Of a DNA stretch of 64,000 bases, positions 5,195 through 61,147 are shown piece by piece. Position numbers and translations under genes: made by a program. The notes beneath the pieces were generated by a model. The model did no database searches and had not been told where the DNA came from. It saw nothing but the letters and a program-made list of their open reading frames with translations. The stretch lies in contig NC_090281.1 in NCBI RefSeq assembly GCF_037392515.1, positions 40,648,645-40,712,644 on the forward strand, read 5' to 3'. Position 1 is the stretch's first letter; every line of letters begins with the position of its first letter. This DNA comes from Haliotis asinina (Eukaryota > Mollusca > Gastropoda > Lepetellida > Haliotidae).

Positions 5195-5207
5195 GCGGGT
5201 GTTTTGA
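5195..5207. repeat. TSD of copy C, left copy
   Basis: gcgggtgttttga, repeated exactly at 11327-11339. It lies in ORF1 of copy B and brackets copy C. Confidence 0.95.
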
Positions 5208-5747
5208 GTGAGTGAGTGAGTTAATATTTAACGTCACATCGGCAATATTGCAGCCATATCGTGACGAGAACATACGTGACAAAAAGAATATATATGCATA
5301 TTATGAAGAACCTGTCGACGAAGGACAGTAAAACCACTAGATTATCACAGTTATTATTAAAACTAGTGTGGAAACTTAAAAAATAATAGTATCATTATTG
5401 GGACAGTACAATGTAAAAACAGGCCGTAGATCACCAACAACAGAGGGTAGATCACCATACTAGGGGCCATGGGGACTTACAGTACCTCTGCTACCTGCAT
5501 GGTCCCTAGCTGGGTTTACACCATCCCTCAGCTGCTGGCGACTGTATGCAAGATTAGCCAAAAATTACGATGACACATATACTACAGCTAAAAAATGTGG
5601 AAGATTAAATCTGATTCCAAATGTTTTGGGACTTACGTACCCTCTCAGGAGGACAATAATTTTACGGTACTTCAACCCCCTTCGAGGATACAGCCACTAA
5701 CAATGTTATCTGCTGATTCAACTTCCAATCATAAAATGGTTATCTAT
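5208..5747 (-). other. Copy C 3'UTR with tail hairpin
   Basis: The (GTGA)n tail at 5208-5220 is followed by hairpin arms cgtcac (5232-5237) and gtgacg (5261-5266) around the gcaatattgc core. A second potential stem flanks the ggacttacagtacc block (about 5462-5510). The conserved cttacgtaccctctc block is at about 5630. The terminal hairpin is a plausible recognition site for the element's own reverse transcriptase (inference). Confidence 0.8.
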
Positions 5748-8700
5748 TTACAAGTTCTGAAACAGGTCTAATTCTTTTAAAAACGCAATGATTAAATGAC
5801 AACTAACATTACTAAAAAGATCCTTCATACTTCGTGATGTAAAATAGTTATCCCTTGTGATGGAATATTCAACACAGTCAAGCAAAACATGCTTGACTGT
5901 GATTCTTTCATCACAAGGGATACAAAACGGAGGATCCTCACCTTTTAACAAGTACTCATGTGTATACCGCGTATGGCCAACGCGACATCGTCGCATAATG
6001 ACCTCCTCAAATCTGGACTGACAACCCAAGTAGGTGTAACCAATATACGGTTTTATCTCATGTAATTTATTGATACCTACTTGAGTGTCCCACTTCTTCT
6101 GCATTAGATCACGGATATAAGATCTAATTGTAGGTTTATAATCTGAATATGGAATAAGAAGTGGAGTCACGGATTTGTTGAGTGCCGCCTTGGCAGCAAG
6201 ATCAGCCAGTGTATTCCCTGAAATGCCTACGTGGCTGGGTAACCAACAAAAGACGATGTCGTATTGGCCAGTAGCAAGATCATTATACAATTCAATAATT
6301 TCTATTAAAAGTGGATGTTTACAAGAAATATTTTTAATAGCCTGAAGGCAAGAAAGAGAGTCGGAGTAGATTATATATTGTTTACGTTTAGGGTGTCTTT
6401 GAATATATCTGAGAGCTGTTAATATGGCGTTTGCTTCTGCAGTAAAAATAGAGCTGTTATCTGGAATTCTAGAAGATATTGTTCTGGATCCAATGACAGT
6501 GGCACAAGCCACTGCGCCACCGTCCTTGGATCCATCTGTAAATAAGGGTTTGTAATTGCTATATTTAGTTTTTAATTGATTATATTCTTGTTTATATTGT
6601 AATTCATTAGTTTCTGATTTTTTAAAAGAAGTTAATGTGAGGTCGACTTGTGGCCTAACCAATTGCCAAGGAGGAGAAGAAAGGAGACGGGAGGGAGCTA
6701 TATTTTCCAGCTCAATGCCGGCCGAAGAAAGAAAGGGTTTAATTCTGTGCCCGAGAGGTGGAACAAGGGAAGACTTTTTGTCATACAAATCTTCATAAAG
6801 TGGGTTGAACACACAGTTGTATGCAGGATTAGAATCATTAGAGTATAATTTAGTAATGTATTGTAAGGATAATTTTATACGACGTTGTGCAAGAGATGGT
6901 TCGTCGGCTTCAACGTAAAGACTGTCAATAGGTGAAGTTCGGAAAGACCCAAGACAAAGTCTTAAACCTTGGTGGTGTACAGAATCAAGAAGTTTAAGGT
7001 TGCTTTTGCAAGCTCCACCGTATACGATGGAACCGTAATCAAGTTTCGAACGGATCAATGATCGATAAAGTTGTAGGAGGGTAGCTTGGTCCCCTCCCCA
7101 CTTACAATTAGAAATGACTTTCAAAAGGTCAAGTGCCTTCAGGCATTTAGCTTTAAGGGATTTGATATGGGGAAGAAACGTTAAATGCGAGTCAAAAATC
7201 AATCCCAAGAACTTGGCCTCTTTTACAACTTTAATAGCAGTGCCATTTAGAAATAGTTCAGGGTCGTTATGCGGTTTATATCGTCTACAGAAATGTATAC
7301 AATTAGTTTTTGATTTAGAAAATCTGAAACCGTTCTCAAGACACCATTTATTAATTTTGTTTAAACACAGCTGCAGTTGCCTCTCAATAGTATGCATATT
7401 TTTACCACGACAAGAGATATTAAAATCATCCACAAAAAGTGATCCGTCAATCGAATCATTTAAAACTTTGGATAAACTGTTGATTTTAACGCTAAATAAA
7501 GTAACAGACAAAATACTCCCTTGTGGAACACCTTGATCCTGATTATAATGATCAGACAGGGTAGAACCCACCCGGACTTGAAATTGCCTGTCATTTAAAA
7601 AGTTGGATATAAATAGAGGCAATCGGCCTCGCAATCCAAAGGCATGTAAATCTTTTAAAATGCCGTATTTCCATGTAGTGTCATACGCTTTTTCTAAATC
7701 AAAAAAGATAGACACTGCATGTTATTTATTAATTATAGCGTTTTTCACAAAAGACTCCAAACGCACCAAGTGATCAATGGTACTTCTGTTTTTACGAAAG
7801 CCACACTGAATATATGTTATGAGGTTATTGGTTTCTAAGTACCAAACTAGTCTATTGTTTATCATGCGTTCCATGGTTTTGCAAACGCAGCTTGTGAGAG
7901 AAATTGGGCGATAATTTGAAGGATCGGTATGGTCACGTCCAGGTTTAGGTATTGGGACTACTATAGCATCTCGCCACGATGACGGAAATCTCCCTGACGT
8001 CCAAATATCATCAAAAATATTTAGAAGAGTTTCTAAACAAGATTCTGGTAAGTGCTTCAGAAGTTGATAATGTATGTTATCAGCTCCTGTAGCAGTATCG
8101 TGGGCCTGGTCAAGAGCAGTATGGAGTTCATGAATTGAAAATACCTCGTTATAATCTTCCCCGTTATCTGAAGTGAAATTTATAGATTTCTCTTCTTGCT
8201 GTTGTTGATACCTTTGGAACTCAGGTACATAATTTGTGGAAGAAGAATGTTGTGCCAGTGTTTCACCAAGTTTATTAGCAATATCAGATGTATTAGTTAA
8301 CAACTGGTCTCCATCTTTGAGATGGTGAATGCTAGATCTAGAGCCCTTACCTTTGATTTTCTGGATCATATTCCATACTTTAGAAATCGGCGTGCGTGAA
8401 TTTATTTTAGATACATAGTTTTGCCAGGACTGACGTTTATTTTGTTTAAAAGTACGCCGTGCTTTAGCGTTTAAGATTTTACATTTGTTCAAGTTATGGA
8501 CCATAGGATGACGACGGAAATAATGTTCAGCTTTTTTCCGTGCCTTGCGAGCCTGTTTGCATTCAACATTAAACCATGGTTTTCGTATGTGTGGAATTAC
8601 TGAGGACTTTGGGATACACTGATCAGCTATGTCGTTCAGATTATTAGAAAAACATTTAATAGCATCAGGAACATCAATGAAAAGTTCAGGTTTAAGTTTG

Positions 8701-9437
8701 TCAATGAAGAGAGTCTCATATAAACTCCAGTTGGCCTTTTCAAAATTCCATCTAGATGATGGAGGGACATCAGATGGGTTCAGGGGTTTTAAGATTGTTG
8801 GGAAATGGTCACTTCCACAAAGGTCGTCGTGGACTGACCATTCAAACTCACTCAATAGACCAGAATCAGCAAGTGACAAATCAAGAGCTGAATAGGTTCC
8901 TGTGCCAGGGTGTAAATATGTATTTGAACAATCATTATATATGCATAAATCGTTGTTTGTAATAAACTCCTCCAGTACTTTCCCTTTAGTATTAACAGTT
9001 GTACCACCCCAGAGTGGGTTGTGGCCATTAAAATCACCCATAATAATACAGGGTTTCGGGAGTTGATTGTAAAGGGTTTGAATATCAGCCTCCTGAAGAG
9101 CTGAAGATGGTGGAATATATAGCGAGCAGAGAGTAAAAGTAACATGCAAAGTAAGTCGTACTGCAACAGCTTGAAGATTAGTTTTAAGGATAACAGGGCT
9201 TTGGAGTACATTATGTCTCACAAGGATGGATGATCCTCCCGTGGCCCTATCACCCGGAGGAGAAAAAGAATGATATGCATTGAAGTGACGCAGGCTGAAA
9301 TTATCTGTCTGCTTTAAATATGTTTCTTGAAGACAGAATGCTGATGGACTAATGTCCTGGACCAATAGCAGTAAGTCGTTAAAGTTGGTCTTCAGTCCTC
9401 GGCAATTCCACTGTATAATATTGTTTGGAGAATCTAT
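5748..9437 (-). pseudogene. Copy C ORF2 (EN-RT-RNase H), one premature stop
   Basis: A 1230-codon frame with the full set of domains. Endonuclease: QWNCRG at the start, LQET, GDFNGHNPLWG, CGSDHFPT. RT: NYRPISLTS, KNRSTIDHL, FDLEKAYD, GVPQGSILS, FVDDFNIS near 7430. RNase H: LFTDGSKDGG near 6540, TAEANAILTAL, YSDSLSCLQAI, WLPSHVGISGN. C-terminal zinc-like motif: CIPCDERITVKH. One TAA within 7716-7721 interrupts an otherwise open frame, where other copies have Gln (INKQHAVSI). No ATG lies near the start. The frame opens at an ATA overlapping the ORF1 stop (ATAG, 9437-9434), the position of ATG in copies A and H. Confidence 0.95.
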
Positions 9438-10702
9438 CTTTTGGGAGGTATGACTGGGGATCTACCCCGTACCTTTTTAGAGGGCGATACGCTTTGCGCC
9501 CGTGGCTGGATGGTTTCAGCCACATCCATTCTTTCAAGAGATCCAAACCTATTAAATAGTTGGATCGAATTATCTGACCCCTTTGAAATCCTATCACTTT
9601 GTCCTTTCGAAGATTCAGTTCTTGATTTGCTTTGTTTCACATTTCTTTGAGATATTTGTGGTTTTTGGGCTTGAGACTTCTTCTGAGTGAGAGATGATGA
9701 TTGACCTTGAGAAAGAGTCTGTATGTCAGAGCGTGAATCAGATGTTTGAGTTGACTGTTCATTTGAATATATTTGAGGCGCTTCAGAGTTCAACCACGTC
9801 AAGTCTGTCTGGCAGTCCACAGATAATGTTGTGACTTTGGTTGTTATTTCAGGGGTTGTCTGGAGGACAGACGCATACGTTTCCGTGCCTTCCTCAGACT
9901 GAACAAGTTTCTTTGCTTCAGAAAAACTGATGTTTCTGGAAAATTTAATTCTATTTATTTTCATGTGGTGTTTCCAGACAGGACAGTCTTTAGAGTATGA
10001 TGAGTGACTCCCTGAACAGTTGGTACATTTTTTAGCATCATTGTCACAGTCTTCCGTTGTATGAGTTTGTTCACCGCAATGAGCACATGTGACAGATCTT
10101 GTGCATGTATTGACGCCGTGGCCAAATCTTTGACATTTGAAACACCTTAATGGGTTTGGAATAAAGGTGTCAACTTTGATATTGCTGTAACCTGCTTTGA
10201 CTGATGTCGGAGCAGTCGGCGTTGAAAATGAAAAAAGGTACGTGTTGGTTGGTTGTGTTTGTGAGTTCTTTCGTGTTGAGAACCGTTTAACAAACATAAC
10301 GTCTTGATCTCTCATCTCAAACACTATGTCAGCTTCCGCCATATCAGCAAACAACTGATCCCTGTCTCGTACAATTCCTTTACTGGTATTGAGCGTTCTA
10401 TGTGCTGTAACTAAAACAGGAACGCCGACAAATGAAACTGTTGACATAAGGTTGGTAGATTGCTGTTTCCTGTTGCATTCTATCAACAAAGAACCTGATC
10501 GTAATCTTCGGACGTTTTTAACTTCACCAGCTATGCCTTGAATACCCTTAGATATGGCAAAAGGGTTAAGTTTGAGAGGTGTTTTGTCAACTGTCTCAAG
10601 CACTAAAAATCGTGGCCAATGTTCTACAGATTTTAATGGTCTTTGCTCATCTTCATTATCCAGTGGACGTTTTGTTTTTTTGGAAGGGGTTTGGTATTCC
10701 AT
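9434..10702 (-). CDS. Copy C ORF1, zinc-knuckle RNA-binding protein
   Basis: 422-residue ORF1 protein, open throughout. After an acidic/basic N-terminus it has a conserved region (WPRFLVLETVD, PLKLNPFAISKGIQG, RLRSGSLLIEC) reminiscent of an RRM-type fold. Three CCHC-type knuckles follow near residues 190-240 (CFKCQRFGHGVNTC, CAHCGEQTHTTEDC, CTNCSGSHSSYSKDC). The C-terminus has the conserved FGSLERMDV box and a basic SP-rich tail ending GRSPVIPPKR. ORF1 proteins of this group bind element RNA to form the retrotransposition particle (family knowledge). The ATG at 10702 gives MEYQTPSKKTKR, matching the start of copy G. Confidence 0.95.
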   Translation of the reverse strand: MEYQTPSKKTKRPLDNEDEQRPLKSVEHWPRFLVLETVDKTPLKLNPFAISKGIQGIAGEVKNVRRLRSGSLLIECNRKQQSTNLMSTVSFVGVPVLVTAHRTLNTSKGIVRDRDQLFADMAEADIVFEMRDQDVMFVKRFSTRKNSQTQPTNTYLFSFSTPTAPTSVKAGYSNIKVDTFIPNPLRCFKCQRFGHGVNTCTRSVTCAHCGEQTHTTEDCDNDAKKCTNCSGSHSSYSKDCPVWKHHMKINRIKFSRNISFSEAKKLVQSEEGTETYASVLQTTPEITTKVTTLSVDCQTDLTWLNSEAPQIYSNEQSTQTSDSRSDIQTLSQGQSSSLTQKKSQAQKPQISQRNVKQSKSRTESSKGQSDRISKGSDNSIQLFNRFGSLERMDVAETIQPRAQSVSPSKKVRGRSPVIPPKR

Positions 10703-11268
10703 GTTTGTTGGTTATATGGTTCATCATCCGAGCTCCCCACCCACCACGGAGTATCACAAGGACAATGCTAAATACAAGTGGGTCTCCAACTTGCAGCACC
10801 AAGGATACCCGGATGATATACTCCAGCAGAAACATTAAAAGATTAACAATTCTACCAGATTGGCCCATGAGCCACCGCCTTCTGGGCATAAGACTCTAGG
10901 CAAAGTTCAAAACATCATATTGAAAGGTCGTTGACATTTGATATAAACAAATGTGCCAAGTCCAAAAGTAAACTTTCTCAAATTACATTTGTGTAATGAC
11001 TTACAAGTCCATACACAGGGCTTGGCGTGACCAGCCGATTGATAGAATCGGGCCGATTCTACCACCCGTCTAGGTGAAGTAAGGGCCGAAGTGGTGTGTT
11101 GGGCAACAGGAACACGATTCAGGCTCCTATTGCCCTCAACCACCAGACTACCGTCCTCCACCGACACGGGACGCAACCCACGGCAAACAGGTTGCCCAAT
11201 TCGGTCGCTCCTTGCGACCAGCAATGGGGTGCTATGGACCTATTTGACCCGGGTCCACACGGGGATTG
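10703..11268 (-). other. Copy C 5'UTR downstream of the ribozyme
   Basis: Untranslated leader between ribozyme and ORF1. It is shared by all full-length copies: blocks reading (minus strand) CCCGTGTGGACCCGGG, GGGCAACCTGTTTGCCGTGG, GGTGGAGGACGG and GGCTGGTCACGCC recur at the same distances. Related elements drive transcription from internal promoters in this region; no specific promoter motif can be shown here. Confidence 0.7.
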
Positions 11269-11326
11269 GAACGGCTCTTGGCGTTACCCAGCACCCACCA
11301 CGAGGAGGTGGCCGTTCACGGGTGCC
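11269..11326 (-). ncRNA. HDV-like self-cleaving ribozyme at the 5' end of copy C (predicted)
   Basis: Numbered from the element's first base (G1 at 11326). P1 pairs GGCACCC (1-7) with GGGTGCT (31-37) and ends in a G1.U37 wobble. P2 pairs GAACGGC (10-16) with GCCGTTC (52-58). P3 is a short CAC/GTG helix (17-19/26-28) that could borrow one more pair from the end of P2; its loop is CTCCTC. G38-G40 then TAA follow, and C46 with YAAG is the candidate catalytic cytosine. P4 is essentially absent, as in known minimal versions. Cleavage before G1 would give exactly the observed 5' end, next to the TSD. Copies B and H keep the fold with compensatory P2 changes. Activity is inferred. Confidence 0.82.
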
Positions 11327-11339
11327 GCGGGTGTTTTGA
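11327..11339. repeat. TSD of copy C, right copy
   Basis: Identical to 5195-5207. The ORF1 sequence of copy B resumes after it. Confidence 0.95.
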
Positions 11340-13049: not shown

Positions 13050-13107
13050 GAACAGCTCTTAGCGTTACCCAGCACCCACCACGAGGAGGTGGCTGTTCAC
13101 GGGTGCC
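13050..13107 (-). ncRNA. HDV-like ribozyme at the 5' end of copy B (predicted)
   Basis: Same 58-nt layout as in copy C. P1 is GGCACCC/GGGTGCT, the P3 loop is CTCCTC, then GGGTAACGCTAAG. P2 is GAACAGC/GCTGTTC, so an A-U pair replaces the G-C pair of copy C on both strands. G1 abuts the TSD at 13108. Confidence 0.82.
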
Positions 13108-13120
13108 GAAGATAAGTGTA
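13108..13120. repeat. TSD of copy B, right copy
   Basis: Exact copy of 891-903. Copy A's endonuclease coding sequence continues from here. Confidence 0.95.
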
Positions 13121-14944: not shown

Positions 14945-15574
14945 AATGAAGAAAGGATATTCGACAACCCTGCTCCCCACCCACCATGGAGTGTCAACAA
15001 GGACGGTGTCGAAGTGGAAACCGACTCCAAACCACCAGGGTTACAGGGTTGTTATACTCTAGCAGTACAGACACAGGTAGCTAAAATTGTCAAACAGAAG
15101 AAAAGTCAGGCTGGTTCCGCCCATGGCTATTATCTGAAGACACATAAAACCCGGAGGTCAGTATTGCCAGATTGGCCTATGAGCCACCGAATGCTGGCAT
15201 AGGACTCTAGGCATAGCAGCAATTTTCAAACATGAGAGTATCACAAAAATATTTCGTGGAAAAGATACAAAGATATACAAAATCCACATTTGATGTTGAC
15301 CATGCACAGGGCATGACATGACCAGCCGATTGGTAGAACCGGGCCAGTTCTACCTCCCGTCTAGGTGAAGTCAGGGCCAAAGTGGTGTGTTGAGCAATAG
15401 GCACACGGTTGCAGGCACCCATTGCCCTCAACCACCAGGATCCCTTCCTCCACCGACACAGGGTTGCAACCCACGGCAAACGGGTTGGTGGACCAAATAC
15501 CCCCCCCCCCCCCCCGGGTCCACAACGGGGGTGTCGGCGAGGTCTTGGCGTTACCGTGGCTCGCCACGGGTGCC
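14945..15574 (-). other. Copy A 5'UTR with degraded ribozyme
   Basis: The leader matches the other copies. At the 5' end GGCACCC and the P2 arms (GGCGAG/CTCGCC) remain, but the part holding the P3 loop and the 3' arm of P1 (about 20 nt relative to H) is missing. A self-cleaving fold is therefore not possible. A run of 16 C at about 15499-15514 is also present. Confidence 0.75.
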
Positions 15575-16438: not shown

Positions 16439-17003
16439 CTACTTGTATTGTTTGAGTTCATAGAGTCGTCTTTCTTTCTCAGTTTTCCATTTGTTCAGAC
16501 TAGCTTCAAACTTAAAAGCTTTTCTTGATGGACCCAGTTTCACTCTCATCAAGCTGTCTTGTTTCTGTACAGTCATTCTATTTCTTGATGCAGTTAGGGT
16601 TTGATTTTTTACAGAAAACCCTCTTTCACACCCTGCTGTGTGCACAGCCAGTGTGAGAGCCAACTGACCAAGTTTAATCATGTTGGGGAAATCCTGAGCA
16701 TGGTAGGTGTGAATCAGTTGCCACAATTCACAGGAAGAGTCTCTAGGGTAATGCTGGGCAAGGACAACCTTCTTTAACAGAGCCCATTCTTTGATAGTTT
16801 GCTCGCTGTTGATGATGGGTGGTGTTGTTTTGTGCAGGGTTTTACCATCCTCCTTCCATGTCATTATTTGGTCTTCACCATAGTGCTGACAGAGTTTATC
16901 TATTTCATTTTGCCCATAGTCATCCAGCTGCTGTTCATTCAAGAAGCTGATTGGTCTCATGGAGAGGATACCAAGTGATGTCAGCAGATCATCAGAAGGA
17001 AAT
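16439..17003 (-). CDS. hAT-derived ZNF862-like gene, last exon (dimerisation domain)
   Basis: Begins after a TTCTTTCAG acceptor at 17004 and ends with TAG at 16439. It contains the hAT C-terminal dimerisation block: LALTLAVHTAGCERGFSVKN, then ASRNRM and LMRVKLG. In hAT transposases and their domesticated relatives this block mediates oligomerisation. The phase joins correctly to the exon at 17344-17537. The structure matches ZNF862/KIAA1586-like genes, which are intron-containing, so this is either a domesticated gene or an intron-bearing relic. The D insertion upstream may have disabled it. Confidence 0.85.
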
Positions 17004-17343
17004 CTGAAAGAACAATTCATTATCTGTGTGCAAGTTCATTGTTTTGTTTGTAATAAAAAAAACAGGTTCATCATATGTTCAGTGTTGTGTGCTGATTTAA
17101 GTGTTATTATGTTTTACAGATGAAGATAGAAATGCAGCAGAGAGGGTTCGAGTGTAGTCATTATTGTTTTACAGATTAAAGAGGGCTTGGGTGATCCTGG
17201 CACAGTCATCCTGGTAGCGCTCATCATCAGCTCAGGGTCCTCACCCCCTCTACATGCAGCCCAGACAGCGAATTATTACGCTATGTTGTATCATTACTGC
17301 GTGGCATTTACGATATGGAAACTGAAGCTGCATTGTAACTTAC

Positions 17344-23407: not shown

Positions 23408-23956
23408 GATGATAAGAATATGTTTCATCAATCCTGCTCCCCGCCCACCATGGAGCGCCAATTGAGCGATGTTAAACGTCAGCGGATTTCCAGCAGACTA
23501 ACACCAAGAGGCTACAGGAATGATATACTCCAGTATGGTATCATACCAGATTGGCCCATGAGCCACCGACTACTGTGCTCTAAGTAAGTAATTCTAATCA
23601 ATATATTCCATATTCAATAAAACAATAGTAAATTTCAATGACTTTTCAACCACGACCAAGATACATTTAACTCCAAAGTCAAATTTGTGCAAATCAATAA
23701 ACTGCACAGAGCCTGGCGTGACCAGCCGATTGATAGAACCGGGCCCATTCTACCACCCGTCTAGGTGAAGTAAGGGCCAAAGTGGTGTGTTGGGCAAAGG
23801 GACACTGTTTCAAGCTCCAGTTGCCCTCAACCACCAGGATCCCGTCCTCCACCTACACGGGACGCAACCCACGGCAAACAGGTTGCCCAATTTGGTCGCC
23901 TCTTACGACCAGCAATGGGGTGCTGTGGACACATTCTGTCCCGGGTCCACACGGGA

Positions 23957-30503: not shown

Positions 30504-31042
30504 GTTTAGTTAGTTAGATTTCATCATCTGAGCTCCCCACCCACCACGGAGTATCACGAGGACAATGCTGAATGCAAGTGGGTCTCCGACTTGGGTCTCC
30601 GGAAGAATTAAAAATAACTAATCCACAAGATTGGCCCATGAGCCATCGCCTTCTGGCATAAGACTCTAGGCAAAGTTCATACGATCATAATTCAAAATAA
30701 AAAGGTTACAAATCAACAGTAGTGCCAAGACCGAATTTCAAAAACAATTCCAAATATCAAAATTGTGCAATGACACAGACACAGTCCATGCATAGGGCTT
30801 GGCATGACCAGCCGATTGGTTGAATCGGGCCAATTCAACCACCCGTCTAGGTGAAGTAAGGGCGGAAGTGGTGTGTTGGGCAAATGGAACACAGTTAAAA
30901 GCCCAACTGCCCTCAACCACCAGGATCCCGTCCTCCACCGACACGGGACGCAACCCACGGCAAACAGGTTGCCCAATTTAGTCGCCTCTTACGACAAGCA
31001 ATGGGGTGCTGTGGACACATTCTGTCCCGGGTCCACACGGGA

Positions 31043-39619: not shown

Positions 39620-40183
39620 GGTTAATTTCTAATAGTTCGTCATCCGAGCTCCCCACCCACCACGGAGTATCACAAGGACAATGCTAAAAACAAGTGGGTC
39701 TCCAACTTGCAGCACCAAGGATACTCGGATGATATACTCCAGCAGAAGAGTTATTAATAACACATCTACCAGATTGGCCCATGAGCCACCGCCTTCTGGC
39801 ATAAGACTCTAGGCAAAGTGCAAAACATAATACATCAAAATCATAAACATGTTTAGAGAACAATTCTGCCAAGACCAAAAGTAACACATTTTCCAAAAAG
39901 ATTAGTATATTGACAAAAACGTAAGTCCATACACAGGGCTTGGCGTGACCAGCCGATTGATAGAATCAGGCCGATTCTACCACCCGTCTAGTTGAAGTAA
40001 GGGCCAAAGTGGTGTGTTGGGCAAATGGAACGCAGTTTAAAACCCATCTGCCCTCAACCACCGGGATCCCGTCCTCCACCGACACGGGACGCAACCCACG
40101 GCAAACAGGTTGCCCAATTTAGTCGCCTCTTACGACAAGCAATGGGGTGCTGTGGACACATTCTGTCCCGGGTCCACACGGGA

Positions 40184-49172: not shown

Positions 49173-52100
49173 ATGTCAAATGTCTGGATTATACTGTTGA
49201 CGATTTTCACCTGTGCTGAGGCTAAATCCCAATATTTCTCTCGTTATTGTGCTATGCAGACTAGTCAAGTGATTGTATGTGAAGGGACAACGCACATGTT
49301 AATTCATCAGACTGGAAACAATTATACTCAAGCAAAATATCTAATATTACAATCATCATTCATGGATATAGGAATAGACATCTTGCTGTTTCCAGTTTTG
49401 AAGGTAGGAAGTTAATTTCAACACGATTTATTATCTTTCATATTATTACAGCTTCAAGTCTTTGAATGTCATTTAGAAGTGAAAATACATAAGAATGAAG
49501 ATTTTTATGGATATCAACTTCTTTATGAGAGAACACAACGTTTCGGAGTTAATGCTTACTCCTGATCATCAGGAGTAAGCATTAACTCCGAAACGTTGTG
49601 TTCTCTCATAAAGAAGTTGATATCCATAAAAATCTTCATTCTTATTACAGCTTGATTTTTTATTCTTAATCAATAATCAATTTATCTATAAGTGATCAAG
49701 TTTACAATAATATTTTAGTAATTGGTACACGTCACTGTTTATTTTTTTATCAGTGATCTTAAAGTGACAATGGTAGATATAACATATTTCTTTATCACAT
49801 TTATGTTGTATCGTTCAAGATTTTATGCATCCAAGCAATATTGTGAACCTCTGTGAAAATAAAAGTAGGTACTTTGTAGATGATTGAAAACGAATTTTTT
49901 GTTTGCTGAAAGAGAGACAACTCCAACCATGCACCTTTAACTTCTGTAACCTTATTGTTTCACTCCATAAATTAATTCTGTGTGGTTTATTATGTTTTTC
50001 TATCACATCAAATTTGTTGAAAAAACATTTACATGAACATCATAATAGAACTTAGCAGCACATCTTCGATATTTAAACATTTGATTGAATCAATATTCAT
50101 GTTCTGGCTTTAATTATCAAGCATGAATTTAACTCATAAGATGTAAGCAAAGGATAATTTTAAAGGATAGTGCAAAATATGAAATTATAATTTATTTAAC
50201 AGACCATCACAGGAGGGAAGGCTTCATGTGAAAGTGTACTGTCTTTACAGTCTGATGTCTCCAGGATTATTACCATAAATGGAAAGAAGTGTATCTGTAG
50301 GTATTTTGTATTTCATTGCACCAATATTTTGTCAAATGTTATGAAGAGATCGATGATGCACTATGTCATTTTACTCTCACAAATGTTTAGTCAAAGGACA
50401 AATATTTCTTATTTAAAACTATAATTATCACTTACATTTTCTGATGGGAGTCTATCCTAGCTTTCTTTTTAATTTTTACTGCTTGTCAAAGAACAATTTG
50501 TTTTAAAACACATTTTACTGATAAGATAACCCCCAGCCCCTCGACTTGATAATGGATAACATTACACACTCATCTTTCTACCCTCCCGTCTACATCCCAG
50601 ACAGGTCAAGGGAGGGAGGGAGGGAGGGAGGGAGGGAGGGAGGAATGATTCCCCCATTACAACTCTGTCTCCTGAGGAGGATTCCAATCCCATCTAGTGA
50701 CACTTTGACATTGCAAGGACAATATATCAATCAATTTATACCCAAAAGATTTCACATAAATATTAGTTTTTAGTTCTTCATGCCTCACTATCATGAACTT
50801 TTTGTCTTGTTAATTGAGTTACCATGTTTATTTTATCACTTATTTATCTCATACATCTGATATCATGATATTGATAAAATATTATTTCAATTATCGTTTC
50901 ATGTTAGTTTTATTTACTAAATTGTTATTTCCACTTTACTTGTTTGTTTATGTTTTACAGTTAATACTACGTTAACTTCTACCAGATCTCCAATTCCATC
51001 TACAAGCAATGAACCATTTGTTTCCTTGACTACTACACAAACAAGTACTGATAATACTCTTACTTCTGTTACTACCTTAACACATACAGCATATAATATG
51101 TCCACACTTCATACCACAACACGACTGTCAAGAATAATTACACATGTTTCCTCCACAATAACTAAGTGGACACCTACCACTTTGATACCTACACCACGCA
51201 CTACTACTTTAAAACATGCATCACATAGGACAACTATTGCCTTCATCAGCACTAGTCAGGAGCCTACTACAACGTCCACAGCCTCAATCATAACCACAGC
51301 TATTTCAACTTCAACTGATAAGTATATAACAGGTATTGCTGCTGCTGCTGATCACAGTATTTTGGTTCGCTGTACTTTGTATTATTTTGACTATGCATAA
51401 AAATACGAGATCAGGAGCCCTGTCAATAAACTTTTATGTAGTAAGATATAATGTTCAAGTTGAAGACAAATTTTGAAAGATACAAAAAGGATAAATCATG
51501 AGTAAGGTATCATCATGACAAACAAAACAATATTCAAATATATTTGCATATAAATTCCTTTACTTTATCCATGGATCAACTCGTCCTCTCCTTCAGTTCA
51601 GCATACAGATGACAACTATGACATTAATGATGATGGTGGTGATGACATTGAAGGTGTTAGAACTGCAATTGATACAACTGGTAGGTACAGCAAAACATGA
51701 ACCACATTGTACCTTTGTAAAATTTTCAGTAAAACTTGAATGATATCTAGTTTTAAAGTTATATAGGCACACTTAGTCACATTTTAGATATCTTAAAAAA
51801 AAGTCATACTCATATTTTAGTTTCACTTATTTACAGTTTACCTCGTTTCAGGTCAGATATTGGCAGCAATTTTGGGTATAGTGTCACTCATGTTGCTGAG
51901 CGCTTTGATATGGTTGATAAGAAGAAATAGACAACGTCTACAAGAAATCATCCATAGATGTCACCTTCCTCATCGACGTCAACATAATCTTGAACCCGAG
52001 GTGGAGATGAACGTACTTCGAAGCCGTTTACAGTCGCCAATATACACCACCCGCTCTCCATATCCCCCTCACGTACAGTTTATCCCAACAGCTGCAGGTG

Positions 52101-55544: not shown

Positions 55545-58500
55545 TTACAATTCATTTAATAAATCTAATTCTTTTAAAAATCCAATAATTAAATGAGAAC
55601 TGATATTAGTAAAAAGGTCCTTCATACTACGTGATTTAAAATAGGTATCCCTTGTGATGGAATACTCAACGCAGTCAAGCAAGACATGCTTGACCGTGAT
55701 TCTTTCATCACAAGGGATACAAAACGGAAGATCCTCACCTTTCAAAAGGTATTTATGCGTATATCTGGTGTGACCAATACGACATCGTCGCATAACGACC
55801 TCTTCAAATCTGGACTGACAGCTCAAGTAGGTGTAACCAATATACGGTTTTATTTCATGTAATTTATTTATACCTACTTGGGTGTCCCACTTCTTTTGCA
55901 TCAGATCACGTATATAAGTTCTAATATTCGCTTTGTAACCTGAGTATGGAAGAAGAAGTGGTGTCACAGATTTGTTGAGTGCTGCCTTGGCAGCAAAATC
56001 GGCCATTGTGTTCCCTGAAATGCCTACATGGCTGGGTAACCAACAGAAGACGATGTCGTATTGGCCAGTAGCAAGGTCATTATATAATTCAATAATTTCA
56101 ATTAAAAGTGGATGTTTACAAGAAAGATTTTTAATCGCCTGAAGGCAAGAAAGAGAGTCGGAATAGATTATATATTGTTTATGTTTATGGCGTCTTTGAA
56201 TATATTTAAGAGCTGTTAATATGGCGTTAGCCTCAGCGGTAAAAATAGAACTGTTGTCTGGTAATCTAGAAGATATTGTTCTGGATCCAATGACAGTGGC
56301 ACAAGCTACTGCGCCACCGTCCTTGGACCCATCTGTAAATAAGGATTTATAACTGCTATATTTATGTTTCAATTCATTATATTCTTGTTTATACTGTAAT
56401 TCATTAGTTTCCGATTTTTTAAATGTGGTCAATGTTAGGTCCACTTGGGGCCTAACCAACTGCCAAGGAGGAGAAGAAAGAAGACGGGAAGGAGCTATGT
56501 TTTCCAGCTCAATGCCGGCAGCAGCAAGAAATGGTTTAATTCTTAAACCAAGAGGCGGTACAAGCGAAGATTTTTTATTGTATAAGTCCTCACACAGAGG
56601 ACTGAAAACACAGTTATATGCAGGGTTTGACTCACTGGAATATAATTTTGTTACATACTGTAAAGCTAATTTGATACGTCGCTGCTCAAGAGATGGCTCA
56701 TCGGCCTCAACGTACATGCTGTCAACAGGTGAAGTTCTAAAGGAGCCAAGACAAAGTCTTAGACCTTGATGGTGAACAGAATCTAAAAGTTTCAGGTTGC
56801 TTTTACAGGCTCCACCATATACAATGGAGCCATAATCAAGTTTTGACCGGATCAGTGATCGATAAAGTTGCAGGAGGGTAGTTTGGTCCCCTCCCCATTT
56901 AGAATTTGAAACGACTTTCAACAAGTCAAGTGCCTTCAGGCATTTAGTTTTGAGGGATTTGATATGTGGTAGGAACGTTAAATGCGAGTCAAAAATTAAT
57001 CCCAAGAACTTGGCCTCCTTTACAACTTTGATGGGAGTGCCATCTAGAGATAGTTCTGGGTCCTTATGTGGCTTATATGTTCTGCAAAAATGTATACAAT
57101 TAGTTTTGGACTTCGAAAATTTGAAGCCGTTTTCAAGACACCATTTATTTATTTTGTTTAAACACAACTGCAGTTGCCGTTCAATAGTATGCATATTTTT
57201 ACCTCGGCAAGAAATATTAAAATCATCCACGAAAAGCGATCCATCAATTGAATCGTTTAAAACTTTTGATAAACTGTTGATCTTGATGCTAAAAAGAATG
57301 ACAGATAAAATACTGCCTTGTGGAACACCCTGATCCTGATTGTAATGATCAGACAGGGTAGAACCCACACGGACCTGGAATTGTCTGTCATTTAAAAAGT
57401 TGGCAATAAATTGAGGCAAACGACCTCGCAAACCAAAATCATGTAAATCCCTCAAAATACCATGTTTCCAGGTTGTGTCATATGCTTTTTCAAGATCAAA
57501 AAAGATAGACACAGCATGTTGTTTATTAATTAGTGCATTTTTAACAAATGATTCTAAACGCACTAAGTGATCAACAGTACTTCTGTTTTTGCGGAAACCA
57601 CACTGTATATCAGTTATAAGGTTATTTGTTTCCAAGTACCAAACAAGTCGATTATTTATCATGCGTTCCATGGTCTTGCAAACACAGCTAGTTAGTGAAA
57701 TAGGTCGATAATTGGACGGATCCGTATGATCACGTCCAGGTTTAGGTATTGGTACTACTATGGCGTCACGCCATGAAGGAGGAAAGTTACCCGATGTCCA
57801 AATATCATCAAAAATATTGAGAAGAGTTTCTAGGCAGGATTCTGGTAAGTGCTTCAGGAGTTGATAATGTATGGTATCAGCTCCAGTAGCAGTGTCATGA
57901 GCTTGATCAAGAGCAGTATGGAGTTCATGAATAGAAAACGTTTCATTATAATCTTCCCCATTATCTGAATTGAAATTAATAGTTTTCTTTTCTTCTTGTT
58001 TTTGATATTGCTGGAATTTTGGTACATAATTTGAAGAGGAAGAATGTTTAGCAAGTGTTTCACCCAGTTTATTAGCAATATCTGATTCATCAGTAAGTAG
58101 CTGATCTCCATGTTTAAGGTGATGGACAGTAGATTTAGTACCTTTACCTTTAATTTTTTGGACCATGTTCCATACCTTGGACATTGGTGTCCGAGAATTT
58201 ATTTTAGATACATAATTTTGCCAAGATTGGCGTCTGTTCTGCTTAAAAGTACGCCGCACTTTAGCATTTAAAATTTTAAATTTATTCAAATTATGCACCA
58301 TAGGATGGCGACGGAAATAATGTTCTGCTTTTTTCCTTGCCTTCCTAGCTTGTTTGCAGTCATCGTTGAACCATGGTTTTCGAATATGTGGAACTGCAGA
58401 GGACTTTGGAATACATTCGTCAGCAATCTTTTTGAGTCCATCCGAAAACAATCGCACAGGGTCAGAAACATCTCTGAAGAGTTCAGGTTGTAATATGTTT

Positions 58501-59231
58501 GAAGACATTATTTCAAACAAAGGCCAGTCAGCCTTTGAGAAATTCCATCTGGAACACGGAGGAACATAAGACGGAGTGACAGCTTTTAGAATGGTTGGAA
58601 AATGGTCACTTCCACACAGGTCATCATGGACTGACCAATCAAACTCATTCAGGAGATCAGAGTCTGTTATGGATAGATCGAGAGAAGAATATGTACCCGT
58701 TCCAGGATGTAAATATGTGTTAGAGTTATCATTAAAGAGACACAGATTGTTGTTACAAAGAAAATCTTCCAGTACTTTCCCTTTACAGCTGGTATGTGTA
58801 CTTCCCCATAAGGGATTGTGACCATTCAAGTCACCCATAATGATACATGGCTTGGGAAGTTGGTCGTAGAGTTCTTGAAGATGAGCGGGAAAGAGTGAAG
58901 AAGAAGGGGGTACATAGACTGAGCACAAAGTAAAAACAATATGCATGGTCATACGAACCGCAACAGCTTGAAGTGCAGTATTCAGAGGAACAGGACTATG
59001 TATTATGTCTTGTCTCACTAATATCGAAGACCCACCCGTGGCCTTTGGCCCTGGAGGTGAATAATAATTGTATGAATTATACTGTCGTACATCAAAATGA
59101 TCATTTTCTTTAAAATAGGTTTCCTGTAGGCAAAATGCTGACGGTTTGAAATCTTGTATAAGTAAATGTAAGTCATTGAGATTATTCCTTAATCCCCTAC
59201 AATTCCATTGAATGATGGCATTGGAGCTCAT
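55545..59231 (-). CDS. Copy H ORF2, intact EN-RT-RNase H polyprotein
   Basis: 1228 residues, no interruption, from the ATG at 59231 that overlaps the ORF1 TGA (ATGA). Endonuclease: IIQWNCRGLRNN, LQETYFK, GDLNGHNPLWG, CGSDHFPTIL. RT: NYRPISLTS, FDLEKAYD, GVPQGSILS, FVDDFNIS at about residue 669. RNase H: LFTDGSKDGG, TAEANAILTAL, YSDSLSCLQAI, WLPSHVGISGN. C-terminal HTRYTHKYL...CIPC...H...C. It is close to C, E and G over most of its length although its ORF1 is quite different. Could act in trans on other copies. Confidence 0.96.
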   Translation of the reverse strand: MSSNAIIQWNCRGLRNNLNDLHLLIQDFKPSAFCLQETYFKENDHFDVRQYNSYNYYSPPGPKATGGSSILVRQDIIHSPVPLNTALQAVAVRMTMHIVFTLCSVYVPPSSSLFPAHLQELYDQLPKPCIIMGDLNGHNPLWGSTHTSCKGKVLEDFLCNNNLCLFNDNSNTYLHPGTGTYSSLDLSITDSDLLNEFDWSVHDDLCGSDHFPTILKAVTPSYVPPCSRWNFSKADWPLFEIMSSNILQPELFRDVSDPVRLFSDGLKKIADECIPKSSAVPHIRKPWFNDDCKQARKARKKAEHYFRRHPMVHNLNKFKILNAKVRRTFKQNRRQSWQNYVSKINSRTPMSKVWNMVQKIKGKGTKSTVHHLKHGDQLLTDESDIANKLGETLAKHSSSSNYVPKFQQYQKQEEKKTINFNSDNGEDYNETFSIHELHTALDQAHDTATGADTIHYQLLKHLPESCLETLLNIFDDIWTSGNFPPSWRDAIVVPIPKPGRDHTDPSNYRPISLTSCVCKTMERMINNRLVWYLETNNLITDIQCGFRKNRSTVDHLVRLESFVKNALINKQHAVSIFFDLEKAYDTTWKHGILRDLHDFGLRGRLPQFIANFLNDRQFQVRVGSTLSDHYNQDQGVPQGSILSVILFSIKINSLSKVLNDSIDGSLFVDDFNISCRGKNMHTIERQLQLCLNKINKWCLENGFKFSKSKTNCIHFCRTYKPHKDPELSLDGTPIKVVKEAKFLGLIFDSHLTFLPHIKSLKTKCLKALDLLKVVSNSKWGGDQTTLLQLYRSLIRSKLDYGSIVYGGACKSNLKLLDSVHHQGLRLCLGSFRTSPVDSMYVEADEPSLEQRRIKLALQYVTKLYSSESNPAYNCVFSPLCEDLYNKKSSLVPPLGLRIKPFLAAAGIELENIAPSRLLSSPPWQLVRPQVDLTLTTFKKSETNELQYKQEYNELKHKYSSYKSLFTDGSKDGGAVACATVIGSRTISSRLPDNSSIFTAEANAILTALKYIQRRHKHKQYIIYSDSLSCLQAIKNLSCKHPLLIEIIELYNDLATGQYDIVFCWLPSHVGISGNTMADFAAKAALNKSVTPLLLPYSGYKANIRTYIRDLMQKKWDTQVGINKLHEIKPYIGYTYLSCQSRFEEVVMRRCRIGHTRYTHKYLLKGEDLPFCIPCDERITVKHVLLDCVEYSITRDTYFKSRSMKDLFTNISSHLIIGFLKELDLLNEL

Positions 59232-61076: not shown

Positions 61077-61134
61077 GGCGAGCTCTCAGCATTACCCAGC
61101 ACCCACCACGAGGAGGTGGCTCGCCACGGGTGCC
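61077..61134 (-). ncRNA. HDV-like ribozyme at the 5' end of copy H (predicted)
   Basis: Same layout as in C and B: P1 GGCACCC/GGGTGCT, P3 loop CTCCTC, GGGTAATGCTGAG. P2 is GGCGAGC/GCTCGCC, which differs from C at four of seven base pairs yet stays fully paired. G1 abuts the TSD at 61135. Confidence 0.84.
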
Positions 61135-61147
61135 TGTAACATGTCTA
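61135..61147. repeat. TSD of copy H, right copy
   Basis: Exact copy of 54995-55007. Confidence 0.95.

Follow-up and report, generated by a model that had tools for sequence, protein, structure and literature searches.

What does a LINE gain from beginning, to the base, with a sequence that can fold like the ribozyme of hepatitis delta virus (HDV)? The question is raised by the first 58 nucleotides of a LINE copy (copy C; 5208-11326, minus strand) in a window of 64,000 nucleotides, the whole stretch of DNA analysed here, which belongs to the 1.143-Gb assembly of Haliotis asinina (159 contigs). We consider it highly probable that these nucleotides are a minimal HDV-like self-cleaving ribozyme, which would free the LINE RNA at its first base, G1, for retrotransposition. 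Copy C is nested inside a second copy, X, and X in turn inside a third, D. Elsewhere the window carries a perfect 78-nt inverted repeat with a 1-nt spacer (49489-49645) and a hAT transposase C-terminal dimerisation region (16439-17020, minus strand).

A predicted P4-less HDV-like fold in the first 58 nucleotides

Between 11326 and 11269, read on the minus strand, copy C begins with the segments GGCACCC, GT, GAACGGC, C, ACC, TCCTCGT, GGT, GGGTGCT, GGG, TAACG, C, CAAGA and GCCGTTC. A preliminary description of this DNA had recognized in them the nested double pseudoknot of the HDV family, and complementary segments for P1, P2, P3 and P1.1 are indeed all present in the HDV order. P1 pairs GGCACCC with GGGTGCT (11320-11326 with 11290-11296) and includes a G1.U37 pair, and P2 pairs GAACGGC with GCCGTTC (11311-11317 with 11269-11275); the GGGTAA segment and the candidate catalytic base C46 (11281), ahead of YAAG, are found as described. 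P3, described there with the loop CUCCUC, is better drawn as a helix of ACC and GGT (11307-11309 with 11297-11299) closed by an L3 of TCCTCGT (11300-11306). With this arrangement C22-C23 of L3 can pair with G38-G39 (11288-11289) to form P1.1, and the 3' strand of P3 abuts that of P1. The same P3 register is found in the alignment to Rfam family RF02682. The predicted cleavage site lies 5' of G1, at 11326.

No P4 helix is present in copies C, X and H, as is characteristic of the minimal drz ribozymes; in each of them five nucleotides (TAACG in copy C) lie between GGG and C46. The cytosine at the C46 position is catalytic in HDV. In the available portion of PMC10879173 a catalytic role of that cytosine is also given for the minimal drz ribozymes.

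A strict P4-less structure descriptor, of the kind that the preliminary description had called for, was applied to both strands of the window with a P2 of at least 7 bp. It matches exactly three places, 11326, 13107 and 61134, each of which is the first base of a LINE copy on the correct strand; in 212 simulated windows it produced 12 matches. With a P2 of at least 5 bp the same three places were recovered, with five matches in 20 simulated windows. The three matches are not independent, since the LINE copies that carry them are related. The strict descriptor replaced a first, loose one, which had given 6,249 raw fits on the plus strand.

Searches with the Rfam HDV models were also proposed at the outset. 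The nearest family, RF02682 (HDV-F-prausnitzii), aligns to copies X and C from end to end, and the scores (32.6 bits for X and 27.0 bits for C) lie below its curated cut-off of 44 bits. Copy H has no RF02682 match among the matches listed, and a further five loci of 10 kb, which contain seven ribozyme-type copies, one of them truncated, gave no HDV-family Rfam match at E <= 1. A genome search with RF02682 returned nothing at E <= 0.001, in a run that scored only 62 of 52,330 candidates and in which the control genomes were also without a match.

Element boundaries, coding capacity and genomic copies

The boundary between element and target-site duplication (TSD) was described as falling exactly at G1, and it does so. 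The 13-bp TSD of copy C, TCAAAACACCCGC (11327-11339, minus strand), ends at G1 and is repeated exactly at 5195-5207, past the (ACTC)n tail. Copy X, which is interrupted by C, starts with a ribozyme at 13050-13107 (minus strand; P2 GAACAGC/GCTGTTC) that is preceded by the TSD TACACTTATCTTC (13108-13120), with the 3' duplicate at 903-891. The ribozyme of copy H (61077-61134, minus strand; P2 GGCGAGC/GCTCGCC) is preceded by TAGACATGTTACA (61135-61147), with the 3' duplicate at 55007-54995. Thus in C, X and H alike the 13 bases preceding G1 recur exactly past the LINE 3' tail, which in this group has the form ...GATGTGACGTTAAATATTAACTCACTCAC(n). As a literature query, the 3' tail stretches gave no match. 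Copy D retains a ribozyme remnant with an internal deletion (15536-15574, minus strand), and the second copy of its TSD, TCAGATTACAACA, lies beyond the window.

We extended this analysis to 264 kb, consisting of the window and 200 kb of flanks, which contain 11 ribozyme-type (type I) 5' ends; a truncated copy and the internally deleted D are counted among them. Seven of the 11 have their best TSD junction at G1 (one of them through a 9-bp match only), and in two more it is at +2 or +4, where shared or one-mismatch bases make the junction compatible with G1. One of the remaining ends has a weak 9-bp match at -5 only, and the other has no TSD match. In the window (904-61134) every detected copy of the group is on the minus strand, and the flanks carry copies on both strands. 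We counted 15 5'UTR cores in the 264 kb. Every one of them has a type I start (in one case a deleted ribozyme) or a start of the ribozyme-less type II considered below. ORF2 C-terminal matches number 22, weak ones included, and the LINE copies here seem for the most part to have kept their 5' ends.

The element was described as a two-ORF LINE, and both reading frames are present. In copy C, ORF1 (9434-10702, minus strand) encodes 422 amino acids without a Pfam match, and ORF2 (5748-9365, minus strand) encodes an endonuclease, a reverse transcriptase (RVT_1) and an RNase H, with one in-frame stop. The ORF2 of copy H (55545-59231, minus strand) has the same domains and is open over 1228 amino acids. 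The endonuclease of this group is of the Exo_endo_phos type. Two ORFs, with endonuclease, reverse transcriptase and RNase H in ORF2, are features of the I superfamily, and the present elements have this layout. As far as the available text of PMC10294476 goes, the molluscs studied there have no I-superfamily clades other than Nimb, Ingi and one unknown clade, and the RNase H and two ORFs fit this picture; assignment to Nimb, based on the layout, is plausible.

Among the best 120 of 294 and 322 protein relatives there are unnamed proteins with up to 61% identity over the full length, a protein (62-64% over 86%) that its label assigns to a Desulfocapsa metagenome bin and, as the nearest named animal protein, one from the limpet Patella caerulea (53%). 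Searches of viral contigs with ORF2 and with the endonuclease found no relatives, and the solved structure ranking first for ORF2, human LINE-1 ORF2p, is uninformative for the clade. A further relative lies in a record of the bacterial gill symbiont of Solemya velum (L002), which contains a LINE-type element with two ORFs, probably as host DNA in the symbiont assembly. This element has no Rfam match and shares no TSD-like word of at least 8 bases between the stretches compared. A 5'UTR core (11000-11220, minus strand) is kept in seven aligned window copies and in the Solemya element (L002:4990-5225), with long unchanged stretches although the endonuclease domain has only 47% amino-acid identity; this core may be a promoter or a structured RNA.

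Genome-wide, the 28-nt core of the ribozyme has at least 7,372 matches with up to three mismatches, while the reversed control has none; this amounts to thousands of copies, on average about one core per 155 kb. Scans for the exact core in viral and in bacterial and archaeal collections gave no matches. To examine conservation we assembled 80 ribozyme sequences from the window and flank copies, 30 genome-search loci and 40 further stretches, and dropped 10 with duplicated flanks. Most of the 70 that remain lie in the first part of contig C1 and were chosen by an exact match to nucleotides 16-43. The conservation of P1', P3 and L3 is therefore not independent evidence; what is independent of the selection is the conservation of C46, of the 5' strand of P1 and of almost the whole of P2. 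P1 is complete in 64 of these copies, P2 in 60 and the C ahead of N-R-A in J4/2, C46, is present in 68; 57 have all of these together with G1. The two copies without C46 in place are one with an insertion (L007) and a truncated one (L008, minus strand); the base is invariant in the other 68. Each of the 20 positions upstream of G1 carries at most 0.49 bits (the maximum is at -13) and G1 itself 1.89 bits. Copies at unrelated insertion sites therefore become alike from G1 onward.

The P2 helix varies among these 70 copies in a compensated manner. Its four main sequences, GGCGAGC/GCTCGCC (44 copies), GAAGAGC/GCTCTTC (six), GAACGGC/GCCGTTC (five) and GAACAGC/GCTGTTC (one), each occur with the matching partner strand, and 14 copies have variants. 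In an alignment of 68 sequences (39 distinct; the L007 and truncated L008 copies were left out), 97.6% of P2 cells pair, compared with 31-48% in slid controls, and 29 cells are changed on both sides, a number reached by none of 500 shuffles. The P2 paired percentage and covariation score were also each reached by none of 500. Two of the five measures are unexceptional: four pairs are changed on both sides (128 of 500 shuffles as high) and there are 11 further pair types (319 of 500), and in a nine-copy alignment the same two were likewise matched, by 96 and 438 of 500 shuffles. The expectation of covariation across genomic copies is thus borne out for P2 (four pairs) by the cell-based measures and not by the other two. 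The signal is carried by P2 alone, because P1 and P3 are nearly invariant, and the P2 types may be a few ancestral events inherited by many copies. Taken together, the anatomy of the element, the TSDs, the covariation in P2 and the genome-wide copies support an HDV-like ribozyme as the exact 5' end of a two-ORF, RNase H-encoding LINE.

Ribozyme-less 5' ends and the proposed role of the ribozyme

That the ribozyme forms the 5' end of this LINE group, as first described, is true of the type I copies; other copies are without it and begin exactly where it ends. There are six of these type II copies in the 264 kb, starting at TCCCGTGTGGACCCGGG. A TSD junction is found in four of the six (three at 0 and one at +1 through a shared T), with two of the matches no better than one mismatch, and none is found in the other two. 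Within the window, copy F starts with TCCCGTGTGG at 31042 (minus strand; TSD TCTTCCA(T/C)ACGC), copy G starts at 40183 (minus strand; TSD TCCAAGCTCAAA) and copy E starts at 23956 (minus strand), where no TSD was found. In GAAGAGC-type ribozymes TCCCGTGTGG directly follows the 3' strand of P2 with zero spacer, so that a type II copy resembles the element with precisely the ribozyme removed.

The type II copies start at a second fold, a possible H-type pseudoknot just 3' of the ribozyme, which in copy C spans 11234-11263 (minus strand) and combines CCCG/CGGG with GTGGACC/GGTCCAT. All seven window copies examined can form this pseudoknot, and for every one of them none of 60 plain shuffles did as well; the stretch does not differ among E, F and G. 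In the Solemya relative (L002) the corresponding search was not significant, with 12 of 60 shuffles as good.

Genome matches number 1,629 for the 32-mer beginning with TCCCG and 1,157 for the ribozyme end joined to TCCCG. Of the first 100 exact TCCCG 32-mers listed, all on contig C1, 55 are preceded by an exact ribozyme end; the other 45 are not, and some of these may have mutated ribozyme ends. An earlier impression that most TCCCG copies are without a ribozyme (1 of 11 versus 22 of 31) was rejected, as many carry a ribozyme end with an inexact core. The ORF2 sequences of 15 copies were placed in a tree, in which, for example, h (type II) and j (type I) share 92.8% identity. Copy II_k, which yielded no ORF2, is absent from this tree, the row for I_i mixes two neighbouring copies and several nodes are weakly supported; with these limits, the branching suggests an interleaving of the two types and hence that 5' ends have been lost, regained or exchanged. 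Copy E (23700-23956, minus strand) is 91% identical to F over its first 256 nt, and its ORF2 DNA is only about 64-71% identical to that of other copies, a pattern that suggests 5' end exchange or strong constraint.

We favour, as an unproven origin of the type II copies, the arrest of reverse transcriptase, which proceeds from 3' to 5', at the edge of the folded ribozyme. A broader and tentative proposal is that the ribozyme is a detachable 5' cassette, and that LINE families have switched repeatedly between a ribozyme 5' end and a start at its 3' edge, on the second pseudoknot. The switches could have either of two sources: the folded ribozyme may halt the reverse transcriptase of its own element, or families may exchange their 5' ends. 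If this proposal is correct, the same set of loci shows the ribozyme as both cutter and stop signal.

For the ribozyme itself, we infer cleavage and a role in the life cycle by analogy with R2, whose ribozyme frees the element from a co-transcript. The element would be transcribed within a longer RNA, either a host transcript or that of an upstream LINE, as in the nest of D, X and C. Since the copies detected in the window are all on the minus strand, a transcript of D, if one is made, would run through both the X and the C ribozyme. The ribozyme would fold behind the polymerase and cut the backbone 5' of G1, and the freed LINE RNA, with a 5' hydroxyl at G1, would serve as the template for target-primed reverse transcription. 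An RNA starting at G1 would account for a full-length new copy that again begins at G1 beside its TSD.

The existence of type II copies implies that the ribozyme may be dispensable. The elements may thus carry a real, cleaving ribozyme that is not needed for amplification, with an internal promoter allowing type II copies to spread equally well; we regard this as rather unlikely, and it is compatible with the main reading. It is consistent with the TSDs at four of the six type II starts, the apparent interleaving of the two types in the ORF2 tree (h and j) and the 45 of 100 TCCCG 32-mers that have no exact ribozyme end just upstream. However, the possible mutated ends among those 45 and the limits of the tree weaken these arguments, type II copies may be dead truncations left where reverse transcriptase stopped at the folded ribozyme, and ribozyme-type ends outnumber type II ends in the 264 kb by 11 to 6.

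It is improbable that the 58 nucleotides are instead a conserved promoter or structured 5'UTR leader, with G1 as a transcription start and no self-cleavage behind the sharp boundary. According to the available part of PMC3774820, there are LINEs whose internal promoter starts transcription precisely at the 5' end, and both the strong conservation of the downstream 5'UTR core and the type II copies would be in keeping with such a function; yet it leaves unexplained the compensating changes in P2, the conserved C46 and a complete HDV-like layout that occurs nowhere else in the window. Least probable is chance likeness combined with shared ancestry, a GC-rich repeat that happens to fit the HDV layout: the relatedness of all copies, the near-constancy of P1 and P3, the Rfam scores below cut-off and the pair and pair-type numbers within the shuffle range would allow it, but the slid controls, the cell-based P2 measures, the descriptor background (12 per 212 simulated windows) and C46 in 68 of 70 copies argue against it.

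Comparison with known ribozymes and LINEs

The preliminary description knew of no account of such a ribozyme in this molluscan group. Our literature search, judged by titles, abstract openings and term counts, found among the matches listed no paper on a molluscan I/Nimb LINE that begins with an HDV-like ribozyme. The claim needs correcting as regards the ribozyme as such: the available text of PMC3774820, citing Webb and Luptak (2011), reports an HDV-like ribozyme from the abalone Haliotis discus in which five nucleotides replace P4. Like the H. discus ribozyme, the present one is HDV-like and has five nucleotides instead of P4 (here TAACG, between GGG and C46). The two may well be the same.

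The P4-less double pseudoknot is shared with drz-Mtgn-1 and the phage theta ribozymes among the minimal drz (PMC10879173, in part). According to the same part, nearly 99% of theta and minimal drz sequences were found in phages, many of them beside tRNAs, and the eukaryote set comprised human, mouse and protists, whereas the present ribozymes lie at the 5' ends of animal LINEs. The RF02682 consensus has the same L3-P3-P1' register and the same GCUAAGA joining segment, but a longer stretch at the position of P4.

HDV-like ribozymes at LINE 5' ends are already known from R2, R4/Dong, RTE and L1Tc, and the novelty of the present one is limited; the pattern of type I and type II copies is the fresher lead. 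What the locus adds is the link between a P4-less HDV-like ribozyme and the precise 5' end of a numerous RNase H-encoding LINE group, together with natural P2 variants for testing. Closely related LINEs with and without the ribozyme could be used to test whether it is needed for amplification and whether its fold arrests reverse transcription.

Trypanosomatid ingi belongs to the I superfamily, under which Ingi and Nimb are both listed for molluscs in the available text of PMC10294476. The Pr77 sequence of L1Tc/ingi likewise places an HDV-like ribozyme in a LINE 5' end, and differs from the present ribozyme in its hosts, its sequence and its additional promoter activity (PMC4035085, in part). 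As far as the available text of PMC3774820 describes them, the HDV-like ribozymes of R2, R4/Dong and RTE lie at or near the element 5' end and cut the element from its co-transcript, and the Bombyx mori R2 ribozyme structure is also without a P4 stem. R2 inserts into 28S rDNA, whereas the present LINEs are found at varied target sequences. The two also differ in coding capacity: the ORF2 described here combines an Exo_endo_phos-type endonuclease with an RNase H, and the endonuclease of R2 is of a different type.
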